From NCBI GenBank assembly GCA_028275165.1, contig JAQCNF010000169.1, forward strand, positions 1-64,000: a stretch of DNA of 64,000 bases, written 5' to 3'. Below the pieces are notes generated by a model. It saw nothing but the letters and a program-made list of their open reading frames with translations. It was not told where the DNA came from and searched no databases. Below, piece after piece: positions 12,202-49,432 of the stretch. The DNA comes from Haloquadratum sp. (GTDB lineage Archaea > Halobacteriota > Halobacteria > Halobacteriales > Haloferacaceae). The translations under genes and the position numbers were made by a program. How positions within the stretch are numbered: the stretch's first letter is position 1; the number at the start of each line of letters is the position of its first letter.

Positions 12202-13062
12202 ATGATTATCGCGAAATCATCAAACGAGTACCGATGTATCACTCAACACGAACATGGTAAAATAGCTGGATTATGTGCTATGTACTGGGGCAGTGGGGAT
12301 TTTGAGTCGCCAAGCCCAGAAGGTTCGCTGGTCACAGCCGCATTCATGCATGACACCGGATGGCAGGAGTTTGATCATCAGCCACGTATCAACGCTGATG
12401 AGAAAGCAGACACTCCAACACCGATTAATTTTCATGAATTACCGCCACAGACATGGGTTGATATGTATGAGCAGGGCATCGATACAGTCAGCAGTGTTGA
12501 TCCGTACGCAGGACTGGTCGTGTCTTTGCATGGGGTCGGATTACAAAATAGACGATATGGGCTTACCCCGGAGTGGAGTAGGCCTGGGACGACATTTACT
12601 GAGTTTATTCACAGAGAACAGAGACGCCAGCGTCGCTTGATAGAGCAGATAGGAGAGCAAGATGGCACCAGCATAACTGCCGAAGACAAAGTGATGTTGA
12701 GGCGACTACAGGACGACGATTATGAACCCGAGCGATATAATGGGCAGCTCTGGTGCAACTATAAATTACTCCAAACGTGGGATACTCTTTCGCACATACT
12801 GTGCGCGACAGCCGACCAGACAGTAGAAACAACGATTGAGCATACTCCAGTCTCGGTCCATACTGACGCGAGTATTGAGGTTTGCTCAGAGGGAGTAAGT
12901 GCATATCAAGTTGACCCATACCCGTTTAGCATTGACCCATTGGTCATTTCAGCGATTGGACGAACAGTCTCCGAACAAACGGTTAATTCAGGGGATGAGT
13001 CAGCGATTGCACGTGAATATTTCTCAAACACAGAGGAAATTGAGTTTCGAATCCACTCGTAA
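12202..13062 (+). CDS. DUF3891-family protein
   Basis: The 286-residue protein starts like DUF3891 members (MIIAKSSNEYRCITQHEHGKIAG) and keeps the histidine/aspartate-rich core AAFMHDTGWQEFD and VSLHGVGLQNRRYG. The HD-like residues suggest a metal-dependent hydrolase fold, but the activity is unknown. The stop TAA (13060-13062) lies inside the terminal gtaaac of an insertion-element relic on the opposite strand, so the last residues may be set by the element. The protein otherwise seems full length. Confidence 0.75.
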   Translation: MIIAKSSNEYRCITQHEHGKIAGLCAMYWGSGDFESPSPEGSLVTAAFMHDTGWQEFDHQPRINADEKADTPTPINFHELPPQTWVDMYEQGIDTVSSVDPYAGLVVSLHGVGLQNRRYGLTPEWSRPGTTFTEFIHREQRRQRRLIEQIGEQDGTSITAEDKVMLRRLQDDDYEPERYNGQLWCNYKLLQTWDTLSHILCATADQTVETTIEHTPVSVHTDASIEVCSEGVSAYQVDPYPFSIDPLVISAIGRTVSEQTVNSGDESAIAREYFSNTEEIEFRIHS

Positions 13063-13395
13063 ACAGCCTCGGGCGCGGTGGCCCGGGGCTTTTCTACTTT
13101 CCTCAGCCGTGTGCTAGCACTCCCTGCTCGGCAAGCGAGCGGGATGAGGGTGGGCGACTTATACGCCCCGACCCGGACAGACGCACCAACCGAACCGATG
13201 GGTTTTGAGTTGTAGTACGCGTCCACCGTGTCCGTCGGAATCTCTCGCCACGTCGCCTTGTACGACACGAATGTCTCGCACTTTGAGACGATCGGCCTCG
13301 GATTGTTCGACGGATGATTGGACAGAGTCCGTCTCGTCATCAGTGACAGGTTCAGCCGCGTTAAGACGACCAAACGCGTCATCGTGGTCGGTCAC
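13059..13395 (-). pseudogene. Decayed TnpB element, 3' part with right-end hairpin
   Basis: On the - strand the frame before the hairpin contains FVSYKATWREIP and TVDAYYNSKP, resembling the TnpB region before its zinc ribbon, but the cysteine knuckles and catalytic end are lost. It ends with a hairpin whose arms are gcctcgggc (13066-13074) and gcccggggc (13081-13089), then gtttac on the - strand (13059-13064). The general layout matches the relics at 14301, 16533, 23845 and 48646. GC is higher than in the flanking DNA. Confidence 0.5.
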
Positions 13396-14223: not shown

Positions 14224-14300
14224 TGACACATCGCTTGAAGACTTCACAGCCCTCCAGTTCACTAGTAGTCAATTTAGTTCCTCTGGCGCACATAGTCGTG

Positions 14301-14427
14301 GATGGAAAGCGCGTTCGTGAGAGAGAATCTCACAGGCTGTCAGACGCCGTCTGACACTGTCGTGGAAACAGGAAGCCCCACCCTCAAGGAAGCGACGCCA
14401 GTCGCTGAGTAGGGTGGGGTAGTTCAC
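14301..14427 (+). ncRNA. Structured repeat copy A: putative solo TnpB omega-RNA / right end
   Basis: Hairpins are visible in order. First gtgaga/tctcac (14317-14322 with 14328-14333). Second gtcagac/gtctgac (14339-14345 with 14349-14355). Third a compound stem, ccccaccct/agggtgggg (14376-14384 with 14411-14419), enclosing agcgac/gtcgct (14391-14396 with 14401-14406). All stems pair perfectly. It ends in gtagttcac. The frame before it ends KRVRERESHRLSDAV, apparently a relic TnpB tail; the same ending recurs in copy B. No tnpB is attached. Confidence 0.6.
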
Positions 14428-14484
14428 CACGGGATCTCGAATTATATTGAGTGAAAGGCAACGCCGGTATCAGCGCTCAGGCGA

Positions 14485-16370: not shown

Positions 16371-16532
16371 CTAAACTCTTCCAGACAAGATCACACTCAG
16401 TTTGCACGCAGAACCCGAGGCCCCGATACTGTTTGAAATCCCCGCAACTCTTCGCTTGAGCAGAAGTAGTGTCTCTCCAGCTGTGATGATCTTGGCACAG
16501 TTTACACAAATCGTCGGGTGCTTTGATGTCAT

Positions 16533-16665
16533 GAATCGAAAGCGCGTTCGTGAGAGAGCATCTCACGGACTGTCAGATGCCGTCTGACAACGTCATTGAA
16601 TCAGGAAACCCCTCAAGCGACGTCAGCCTCTGAGTGGGGTGGTAATTTACTCATGAGTAGCTCAC
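16533..16665 (+). ncRNA. Structured repeat copy B: putative solo TnpB omega-RNA / right end
   Basis: A 47-base core from gcgcgttcgtgagagag to the second hairpin differs from copy A at about four positions. The stems gtgaga/tctcac and gtcaga/tctgac are kept. The terminal stem is weaker (cccctca 16609-16615 with tgagtgggg 16631-16639, one bulge). The preceding frame ends KRVRERASHGLSDAV. The end motif gtagctcac (16657-16665) contains the complement of the stop codon of the polD small-subunit gene; an alternative end is aatttac at 16644-16650. Confidence 0.55.
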
Positions 16666-18149
16666 AGGAACTTTCGGACAGTCATCTCAAGTGTGTCAAG
16701 ACTGACAATCGGTGCATACCCAACATCAGGATTAATATTTACAGACTTCTGAAAGGAGGTCTGTGCTTGCCAGCAGCCGGAATTGATCGTGAGCACACCG
16801 TGATATTTCGCCCATCCCAACTTATGAACGTGTCCTGCATGGAAGATATCGGGGACTCTATCGACAACCAAATAATCTTTCTCTTCAGGTGCTACACGAG
16901 TTTTACCACCGAATTGAGGTGCCAAATGTCGCTTCTTGAGAAGATGTGCCATCGCCGTGTGCGGGTTATCATAGGATGCTTTTTCATCCGGAAGTTCAGC
17001 GATTATTTCGTCGAGCGATGTTCCGTGGTAGAGCAGGATATCCACACCCTCAATGGTTACGAGCGAGGGATTCCCTGTAATTCGGGGGTCATGTGCCGAC
17101 ATGATCGAGCGGAGTTCTTCATCAAACCCTGGTTGTGGCTCGGCAAGACGAACCGCGTCATGGTTACCAGGGATCATTAGTATCTCTAAATCACCGGGCA
17201 CAGCCTTGAGGTACTCAGCAAAGGATTCATATTGTTCATAGATATCGACAATATCGAGTTCTTTGTCTTGATCTGGATAGACACCAACGCCCTCAACCAT
17301 GTCACCGGCAATGAGCAGGTATTCCACGGCAGACGCCTCATCAGTGTGTAGCCATTCTGCGAACCGGTTCCATGCGCTCTCGACGAACTCATTACTTCCA
17401 ACATGAATATCAGAAATCAGCGCCGCCTGTACATGCCGGTCAGCTGTGTTTGGCTCATATGTTCGTGGAATATCTGGAAAATGGACCGCTTCAGCGAAGA
17501 GAATTCCGGCATCCTCTGAAAGTGTGCCCTCAACTGCGATGCACTCATCGAGTAATAACTCGTCAACAATCGCTGAGAGCGGATGGTCAGACATCAGAAG
17601 ACACGGAAAGGTGCCAGTTGTGTCTTCGATCTCGATGAGCCAGTGCCCATTTTTTGTAGACCGTATATCATTAACGAGACCGATGACTGCTGCCTCCTGA
17701 CCACCGTTCATTACAGAGACTGCTCTTGATGGTCGATGGTTCACTCGCCCTCGAAGCTGCTGAGATAACTGTTTGTAGCGATCACGAAACAAAGACACAA
17801 AATCACGATACTCACCCGTTCCAGTCGATTCACCAGTAATGTCCCCGCTGACACGCATCTCCGCTGAGTCGGGTGGAGAGGAGGAGCGCTCATCCTCAGG
17901 GGTTGAGCTGTCAGTCTCTCTTGATTGTGTGACGACAGCGGTCTCATCGGTGCTCGATGAGTTATCAAGCAGCGTTCTGACATCAGCAGTAGTAATTCGA
18001 AGTTGCTCAGACGGTGTCTGCTCAATCAGATTGCTCAGTGTTGCTGCAACATCATCAGCTCCAGCAAGCAGGGTTACAGCTTCCCGTTCGGCGTTATATC
18101 CCGATTCAGTCAGCTGCTGAACAATTTGAACGGGTGTTTCCGATGGCAC
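16662..18149 (-). CDS. polD1: DNA polymerase D small subunit (DP1)
   Basis: The 495-residue protein is the exonuclease/small subunit of the replicative polymerase D. An N-terminal helical region (about 1-60) and an acidic linker (60-125) precede an OB-fold and a calcineurin-like phosphoesterase domain with SDIHVGS, LIAGDMVEG, IPGNHDAV, LLYHGTS and DIFHAGHVHKLG, so the metal-binding motifs for 3'-5' exonuclease are intact. The start is GTG at 18149 (VPSETPVQIVQQL). Its position next to sec11 and orc1 is the common haloarchaeal oriC1 arrangement. The stop codon falls in repeat copy B. Confidence 0.93.
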   Translation of the reverse strand: MPSETPVQIVQQLTESGYNAEREAVTLLAGADDVAATLSNLIEQTPSEQLRITTADVRTLLDNSSSTDETAVVTQSRETDSSTPEDERSSSPPDSAEMRVSGDITGESTGTGEYRDFVSLFRDRYKQLSQQLRGRVNHRPSRAVSVMNGGQEAAVIGLVNDIRSTKNGHWLIEIEDTTGTFPCLLMSDHPLSAIVDELLLDECIAVEGTLSEDAGILFAEAVHFPDIPRTYEPNTADRHVQAALISDIHVGSNEFVESAWNRFAEWLHTDEASAVEYLLIAGDMVEGVGVYPDQDKELDIVDIYEQYESFAEYLKAVPGDLEILMIPGNHDAVRLAEPQPGFDEELRSIMSAHDPRITGNPSLVTIEGVDILLYHGTSLDEIIAELPDEKASYDNPHTAMAHLLKKRHLAPQFGGKTRVAPEEKDYLVVDRVPDIFHAGHVHKLGWAKYHGVLTINSGCWQAQTSFQKSVNINPDVGYAPIVSLDTLEMTVRKFL

Positions 18150-23719: not shown

Positions 23720-23848
23720 ATGCAACGTGACGGCGATCTACACGAATGTGTCCAGCAGTACGCCCATGAGAGCGGTATCTACCACCCGAAGGCTAACCGC
23801 GGGCTAATCGAGATGGAGTTAGAAGCAACAGCCGTTGATTCCGAGTAA
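23720..23848 (+). CDS. Short ORF ending in an element relic, unknown
   Basis: MQRDGDLHECVQQYAHESG onward, 42 residues, acidic and plausible as a haloarchaeal protein. Its stop TAA (23846-23848) lies inside the terminal gtaaac of the relic on the - strand, so this may be the 5' part of a longer gene cut off by the insertion. No family recognised. Confidence 0.4.
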   Translation: MQRDGDLHECVQQYAHESGIYHPKANRGLIEMELEATAVDSE

Positions 23849-24120
23849 ACGACGCCACCCTACCGCACTCGGAGCTCTCCTCTCGCTTATTGAGGGCTTG
23901 CTGTTTCTGTGTCGGAGCTTGTCAGGTGGACATAGCGGCTCCAGACTCCGTAGGCGAGTTGGACTCAAGAGTTCGGAGTCGGAGTTTCCCACTCCTCCCG
24001 GATGGACACTCGAGAGCGATGGTGCGCGTTTCCTGTCGCGCTCGAACACCCTACATGGTGAGCATCGGACTACCTCATTTGACCGAAAGGGGCTAGCATG
24101 GTGGAGAAACAATAATCAAC
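23845..24120 (-). mobile_element. TnpB-element right-end relic, copy D
   Basis: On the - strand the blocks aaacagcaagcc, ctcaataagcga, tagggtggcg and gtttac appear in the same order as in copy A (aaacaggaagcc, ctcaaggaagcga, tagggtgggg, agttcac). Upstream coding sequence is degraded beyond recognition. It abuts the ORF at 23720 and provides its stop. Confidence 0.45.
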
Positions 24121-24540
24121 TTGTGCGGGTGCTATCTCGCCTCCCTGCTCGCGTTTCCGACGCTCGCGAAGGCCGAGGGGAGGGAGTGGGATTCCCTCAT
24201 ACAGCTAAACCCGGCAGACAATGACCTCACTGACGCAACGAGAGTGTCTGTGACAGCACTGCGAGCCACACCAAACAGAGCAGATATCGATTGGTGATTT
24301 CGGATCGAAACCCATCGCCAGCGGTCACTGGGATTCCGTAGCGAAGCCCGGCCGTTCACAGGGAGAGAGATGCCACAGAATCCCAGTGAGTGACCTCTCC
24401 TAATGAAAGTTCGTCGCATCCAGATACTGGTCGCCCAAGCACTCTGTTTTAGTTCCAACGTGTGCTCAAAAGCGAACAGCGACATCTCGGCCATCCGCCT
24501 TCGAGCGAGAACCCAAGCAAGAACCGCTTAAGAGTGATAC
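24121..24540. mobile_element. Mosaic of decayed insertion-element DNA
   Basis: This gene-free stretch is GC-richer than its surroundings. It holds a palindromic block with ctccct/agggag arms around 24171-24207 and an inverted repeat, cactgggattccgt (24326-24339) against acagaatcccagtg (24375-24388), 13 of 14 paired. Such hairpins are typical of IS200/IS605 ends. No transposase can be read. Confidence 0.4.
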
Positions 24541-48645: not shown

Positions 48646-48785
48646 GTGGATAGAGGGCGCGTTCGCGAGAGACCATCTTACGGGTTGTAGACGTCGTCTG
48701 ACACTATCACCGAAACAGAAAGTTGAGTTCTACCTCTGTCTCAAGGACGGCTATCGCCGCGAGTGAGTAGGCAGAGGTAGTTCAC
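48646..48785 (+). ncRNA. Structured repeat copy C: putative solo TnpB omega-RNA / right end
   Basis: Homologous to copies A and B (gcgcgttcgcgagaga, gtcgtctgacactatcac, aaacag). The terminal stem is ctacctctg/cagaggtag (48730-48738 with 48772-48780), nine perfect pairs, where copy A has ccccaccct/agggtgggg: the bases differ but pairing is kept. An inner stem cggc/gccg (48748-48751 with 48756-48759) also remains. It ends in gtagttcac, which contains the complement of the stop codon of the next gene. Confidence 0.6.
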
Positions 48786-49432
48786 CCAGCAATCAGTATC
48801 TCAATCAGACGCCAACTCACGTATCCACTACCCGAAGCAACGAATGGAATTGAAAGATTATCATCAACCACATACCCACGTACTACGGGCTTGAATCCGT
48901 CAGCCAACGTTGCAGTCGTTGAGGCGACACCTGCGATAATCGACCCGCGAGCTATTCCCGCGGCTGGAACAGTGAATGGCACCGACACTGCCATACATAC
49001 CACAAACATTACCGAGAGGGTTGAGAGCTGTTTTGACTCCTGTGCATCACGTGTCGACCCAACTATCCCCGCAATCGGATCACCGATCGTCAACATTAGG
49101 ACTGCCGGGAGAGCTAAAGACGGGTCAAACACAAGCACGACTGTTGCGATACTAAACATATATAGTGCATATCCGGCCACATTATTCCGCTCGTACGGCC
49201 GAATAAGTGCATCATATATGGTCCACTCAGTCGTTGTGCTCAGTCGAACTACCTCAAGGACACTGACGATAACGACGCAACCAATCACCAACGTACCAAG
49301 CGTTGTCCAAGTAACTATGTTGGCAATATATAAGACTGGAAGTCCCGTCCCACTCAAGTGCACGAGTCGGCGTTTTGTCTCATTCGGCGAGTCATGAGCT
49401 TCCATCGTCTGGCTATCCACCTCTGAGGGCAT
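48782..49432 (-). CDS. Dolichol-kinase / CTP-transferase-like membrane protein
   Basis: 216 residues with about six membrane segments. The motifs KRRLVHLSGTGLPVLY near the start, TIGDPIAGIVGSTRD in the middle and TATLADGFKPVVRGYVVDDNLSIPF near the end fit the SEC59/DGK1/VTE5 family of CTP-dependent lipid or polyprenol kinases. In archaea a role in lipid or dolichol-linked glycan supply is likely (inference). The stop TGA lies within the terminal motif of repeat copy C. It is 15 bases downstream of glyS on the same strand. Confidence 0.8.
   Translation of the reverse strand: MPSEVDSQTMEAHDSPNETKRRLVHLSGTGLPVLYIANIVTWTTLGTLVIGCVVIVSVLEVVRLSTTTEWTIYDALIRPYERNNVAGYALYMFSIATVVLVFDPSLALPAVLMLTIGDPIAGIVGSTRDAQESKQLSTLSVMFVVCMAVSVPFTVPAAGIARGSIIAGVASTTATLADGFKPVVRGYVVDDNLSIPFVASGSGYVSWRLIEILIAG

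Follow-up and report, generated by a model that had tools for sequence, protein, structure and literature searches.

Repeats at convergent gene ends

The 3′ end of polD1 (16662–18149, minus strand), which encodes the small subunit of DNA polymerase D (archaeal Pol II; NCBIfam NF003116, 880 bits; Pfam PF04042), is faced on the plus strand by an ωRNA scaffold joined to the right end (RE) of an insertion element, at positions 16546–16650 of the window, as we call the 64,000-nucleotide stretch of DNA that was analyzed. The MAG to which the window belongs, as contig C24, is haloarchaeal and comprises 3.1 Mb in 194 contigs (G000). Its closest relative among the genomes compared is Haloquadratum sp. 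J07HQX50 (G001), with a polD1 gene 97% identical to that of the window, and neither of these two key MAGs is complete (73% and 68%, respectively). The RE of the polD1 copy ends in the tip TTTAC (16646–16650), and the predicted 16-nt guide, TCATGAGTAGCTCACA (16651–16666, plus strand), follows directly 3′ of it. A first-pass annotation of this DNA had started the read-out of the polD1 copy at 16657. That boundary was ruled out, as the tip lies at 16650, and the overlap of the guide with polD1 consists of the stop codon (16662–16664) and 2 nt of the last codon, nothing more.

To describe the repeats at the RNA level, we used a covariance model, R1, built from 15 copies of the polD1-type repeat. 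At the DNA level, the repeat at 16528 occurs 24 times in G000, and the R1 search yielded 38 copies there and 19 to 47 in each of four relatives; some weak matches in G011 (L193 and L200) were simple repeats and false. A conserved scaffold lies directly 5′ of the RE, scoring 89 to 129 bits with R1 in the window copies (105.9 bits at polD1) versus 131 bits in a tnpB-linked copy, and R1 also scored 41.6 bits 3′ of an uninterrupted tnpB gene (L027). Among the 103 copies read with their flanks, the RE tip is TTCAC in 68 and TTTAC in 5, and the copies diverge abruptly right after it. A subterminal RE hairpin is present in the fold of 14278–14443, and in some copies, including that at 16533, the hairpin is degenerate. 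The only match to Rfam RF02657 (sot2652) was 13043–13216 on the minus strand (100.3 bits; cut-off, 61), the copies at 16533, 14278 and 48646 having no match to that family. These results confirm that, in this Haloquadratum-like haloarchaeon, the repeats consist of the RE and ωRNA scaffold of IS200/IS605 (IS1341-type) elements. The first-pass annotation had read them as TnpB guide-RNA ends, and it was right in this and in taking the DNA immediately 3′ of the RE as the guide. The window copies are very probably non-autonomous or decayed elements of this type, of the kind called PATEs (palindrome-associated transposable elements) in Haloquadratum.

The copy at 13059 represents another ωRNA family, sot2652, for which the target motif is taken over by analogy with the R1 family. 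Its ωRNA and RE occupy 13059–13216 on the minus strand, with the tip TTTAC at 13063–13059, and directly 3′ of the tip lies the predicted guide GAGTGGATTCGAAACT (13043–13058, minus strand), antisense to the last codons of a DUF3891 gene (12202–13062, plus strand; Pfam PF13030). On the 3′ side of its DUF3891 gene (L112), J07HQX50 has no sot2652 copy at the stop, and the RE of another IS605-type element is found ~80 nt further on. The scaffold and RE of the copy at 48646 span 48661–48785 on the plus strand (R1, 89.4 bits; tip TTCAC at 48781–48785) and are followed directly by the predicted guide CCAGCAATCAGTATCT (48786–48801, plus strand), antisense to the last codons of a 216-aa gene (48782–49432, minus strand), previously labeled dolichol-kinase-like, that has no Pfam or NCBIfam match. 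The guides of both copies fall entirely on the last codons of the facing genes. At 23845, a weak ωRNA/RE relic (23845–23918, minus strand; R1, 17.5 bits; tip TTTAC) lies opposite a questionable 42-aa ORF (23720–23848, plus strand) in the same pattern as the copies at stop codons, and this ORF was rejected as a gene because it is not conserved in the sister genome. The earlier claim that the DNA downstream of four copies is antisense to the end of the adjoining gene therefore stands for the copies at 13059, 48646 and 16533 and is doubtful for that at 23845.

Insertion target and expected TnpB target

Seven sites are occupied in one and empty in the other member of the G000/J07HQX50 pair, and at all of them the empty allele has TTTAR (R = A or G; TTTAG at five sites and TTTAA at two) directly before the flank that matches the guide, with 13 to 16 of the 16 guide bases matching behind it. 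Insertion is 3′ of TTTAR, and target duplication is absent at the seven empty sites. The clearest of these sites are L003 and that of the window's 14278–14427 unit, described below. At L003, the occupied allele reads TTTAG/CTGAATGC...TTCAC/AGGAAGG around a 375-bp element, and the empty allele of J07HQX50 reads CCATTTAG/ACGAAGG. The seven sites belong to copies other than those at polD1, 48646 and 13059, for which we infer the pre-insertion state.

One empty site lies in the window itself. J07HQX50 has a copy (L169, G001:C1:1306269-1306365) at the place orthologous to 24448–24468, where the window, without the copy, has TTTAG (24448–24452, plus strand) followed by 15 of the 16 guide bases of L169.

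At occupied loci the guide is preceded by TTCAC or TTTAC, and at empty sites the matching flank is preceded by TTTAR. The possibility that the RE tip is itself the target motif (TAM), which would mean self-targeting, was ruled out by the empty sites. Because the occupied loci carry TTCAC or TTTAC before the guide, TnpB is expected to target the element-free allele and not the occupied locus, and it would cleave with TTTAR as its TAM, to judge from the insertion target. For ISDra2 TnpB, the TAM plus the guide equals the empty site (Karvelis 2021; PMC8612924). When G000 was searched with the polD1 guide plus TAM, allowing at most one mismatch, only the polD1 locus itself was returned, and the mismatch sits in the TAM (TTTAC). 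With TTTAR at the seven empty sites, TTCAC or TTTAC at occupied loci and this mismatch at polD1, the suggestion of the first-pass annotation that the RNA could guide TnpB to its own locus is not supported. Copies ending in TTTAC, which is one base off the TAM, may target themselves weakly.

A candidate source of TnpB is present in the genome. L027 of G000 encodes an uninterrupted TnpB of 382 aa with RuvC-type catalytic motifs and a zinc finger, and its R1-like RE ends in TTCAC. G000 also has uninterrupted TnpA-like frames (PF01797), which are candidates for moving the ends found in the window. Of the tnpB-linked copies, the one closest to the units at the RNA level (L002/L041) has a 39%-identical TnpB-like stretch without a full-length open frame (183 aa). 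Processing of tnpB transcripts appears to yield the ωRNA in Halobacterium (PMC12558985). The guide units described here are mostly detached from tnpB, and TnpB would therefore have to act in trans on them, which is possible. G000 is unusually rich in IS605-type remnants: its 3.1 Mb contain 17 TnpA matches and 125 to the TnpB C-terminal family, the latter mostly short or broken fragments.

ωRNA-only units of 150 bp

A 150-bp ωRNA-only insertion, left out by the first-pass annotation, was verified at 14278–14427 (plus strand; R1, 129.3 bits). It follows the TAM TTTAG (14273–14277, plus strand), which forms its left junction, and ends in the RE tip TTCAC (14423–14427). J07HQX50 has a clean empty site, reading TTTAG/CACGGGATCTCG without the insert, and the predicted guide (14428–14443, plus strand), which is intergenic, matches this empty site at 15 of 16 positions. 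A convergent aspartate kinase gene ends 57 nt away. The predicted fold of the unit is more stable than those of shuffled sequences (z = -3.2).

A 152-bp copy elsewhere (L007) has the same ends as the 14278–14427 unit and is 91% identical to it. These two and a third unit (L004, 150 bp) have one left junction, in which TTTAG is joined to the identical point of the tnpB 3′ region. Longer copies have TTCAC where the left junction of the short units has TTTAG, which suggests that the 150-bp unit is mobilized as one piece, delimited in its parent by two TTCAC motifs. We consider it rather unlikely that the unit is not mobile in its own right and that a full element was inserted whose core was later deleted, as for the PATEs of Haloquadratum walsbyi. 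Core deletion between direct repeats is documented for IS605-type elements and PATEs (PMC3119063), but here the left junction is exactly the same at three loci, and it is improbable that independent deletions all stopped at a single base; one deletion may, however, have been followed by the spread of its product. In J07HQX50, a left-end fragment, TTTAGCAGTTTGTAGGCGCTCAGGCCCCC (L249, G001:C2:923314), is joined directly to flank DNA that follows an RE in G000, by either core deletion or a second insertion.

Orientation toward gene ends

We compared the orientation of the copies with that of unoccupied TTTAR sites drawn from the same loci, using genes called by codon score. Among 78 independent copies whose downstream gene could be called, 47 are antisense and 31 sense to it, versus 110 and 178, respectively, of the unoccupied non-coding TTTAR sites (Fisher p = 7e-4; p = 4e-3 with five questionable edge ORFs taken as sense). 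At distances of up to 60 nt, the ratio is 18:2 versus 26:33 (p = 5e-4; p = 0.03 with the five edge ORFs as sense). This antisense excess would fit a scenario in which selection acts against insertions in front of gene starts, which are presumably lost.

The antisense placement, which is real at three gene ends, had been taken by the first-pass annotation as a sign that the copies may be regulators whose RNAs pair with the facing gene or guide TnpB to it. Scaffold folds are still more stable than those of shuffled sequences (z = -3.2 and -2.4), haloarchaeal ωRNAs are expressed (PMC12558985), and TnpB relatives can turn into RNA-guided regulators, as described for TldR proteins (PMC13418256). 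We nevertheless regard regulation as very unlikely. Site survival would account for the orientation, the match at the copy's own locus is not preceded by TTTAR, and the polD1 guide hardly reaches the coding region. The polD1 copy occupies the same site in the window and in J07HQX50, but the element is only 89% identical between the two, whereas the flanking genes are 96% identical and other intergenic DNA is 92 to 97% identical; this faster divergence argues against selection, and the scaffold has an indel. With the L027 TnpB as the query, no significant match to a tnpB coding remnant was found 5′ of the polD1 copy or elsewhere in the window, so that nothing detectable is there to supply a processed ωRNA, and in the regions inspected no copy of the polD1-type family faces polD1 beyond the two sister genomes. 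Judged by its sequence, the polD1 copy looks like an old, decaying relic shared by two species. In a more distant relative of the same genus (G013), the DNA 3′ of polD1 (L072) appears sot2652-like by eye and has no Rfam match.

Rebuilding of interrupted stop codons

Insertion into an antisense stop codon restores the stop in frame. Read on the opposite strand, TTTAR gives Y-TAA-A and the RE tip gives G-TGA-A or G-TAA-A, without a change of frame. We found this in three genes, those for Pelota, DUF3891 and the 216-aa protein. In the Pelota gene (L004/L152; named from its sequence), TTTAG stands at the left end of the element and the RE tip forms the stop, and the protein ends in RYRLS with the element versus RYRLQ or RYRIQ in 15 relatives. 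A 150-bp unit lies exactly at a Pelota-like stop codon at L004 (G000:C21:28370-28484), L152 and L268, the last residue being S versus Q in relatives. The DUF3891 stop, TAA at 13060–13062, sits inside the reverse complement of the RE tip TTTAC, and the C terminus (IHS before the stop) is identical in three relatives without the sot2652 copy; here, too, the stop was rebuilt with the element. The TGA stop of the 216-aa gene (48784–48782) sits inside the RE tip TTCAC, and the protein ends within a few residues of the ends of its relatives. Stop-codon insertions would thus be tolerated because the RE tail rebuilds the stop. The literature examined contained no account of IS605-type elements rebuilding stop codons, which is not proof of absence. 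We regard it as very unlikely that the elements prefer stop codons as targets: three independent R1 copies and the sot2652 copy do lie exactly in antisense stop codons, but such insertions do not exceed availability (3 of the 78 copies versus 8 of the 288 available TTTAR sites; p = 0.71), and the ~3% of genes that end in YTAAA supply the targets.

Discussion

The elements described here resemble the PATEs of Haloquadratum walsbyi (PMC3119063) in being short, transposase-free, heterogeneous, decayed and very numerous, in having IS605-type termini and no target duplication, and in residing in a related haloarchaeon. They add to that picture that the internal part is an ωRNA scaffold, the 150-bp units being little else, that the empty sites fix TTTAR as the target and that interrupted stop codons are rebuilt. 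A homogeneous PATE family of ~575 bp, with copies about 90 to 95% identical (L226, L227, L228, L229 and L231), a left end of TTAGCTGAATACAGGCGCT and a right end of GTAGTTCAC, occurs in G013, which belongs to the same GTDB genus. With the haloarchaeal sotRNAs and ωRNAs (Rfam RF02656 and RF02657; PMC12558985), the elements share the arrangement of a scaffold followed by a 16-nt flank, and the copy at 13043–13216 matches RF02657; unlike them, the window copies have no intact tnpB on their 5′ side, and most belong to a family outside Rfam. The donor-joint targeting of ISDra2 TnpB-ωRNA (Karvelis 2021; PMC8612924) likewise has the motif to the left of the element and the guide in the right flank, but its motif is TTGAT instead of TTTAR, and the units here are mostly detached from tnpB.

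The elements end in TTCAC or TTTAC and insert 3′ of TTTAR without target duplication. We propose that ωRNA, if read from such a copy, would have the adjoining downstream sequence as its guide. TnpB supplied in trans would then be directed to TTTAR plus that flank in the element-free allele, on a sister chromosome or in a relative, and not to the occupied locus. Insertions before gene starts would presumably be lost and those behind a convergent gene would be harmless, so that copies often face gene 3′ ends, the extreme case being a copy inside a stop codon with the stop rebuilt in frame. Taken as a whole, this combination of decayed or non-autonomous elements, targeting of the empty allele and site survival at gene ends is, in our judgment, highly likely to be the right explanation. 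A further step, which we put forward only tentatively as one possibility, is that the ~150-bp units are mobile guide-RNA genes, consisting almost entirely of the ωRNA scaffold and RE and acquiring a new guide with each landing, that are kept or spread by TnpB cutting element-free alleles in trans in polyploid haloarchaeal cells; the antisense TAA stops of conserved genes, such as that for Pelota, would offer neutral sites whose sequence is also present in related strains.

The regulatory reading is thus replaced by a testable rule: TTTAR precedes the guide match at the target and TTCAC or TTTAC precedes it at the occupied site, and therefore it is the five bases preceding the guide that tell the self allele from the empty one. 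The presence of elements in conserved genes would have a simple reason, namely that the tail rewrites the stop codon that the element interrupts. RNA-guided homing could carry non-autonomous elements along, provided that TnpB acts in trans with the detached ωRNA units.
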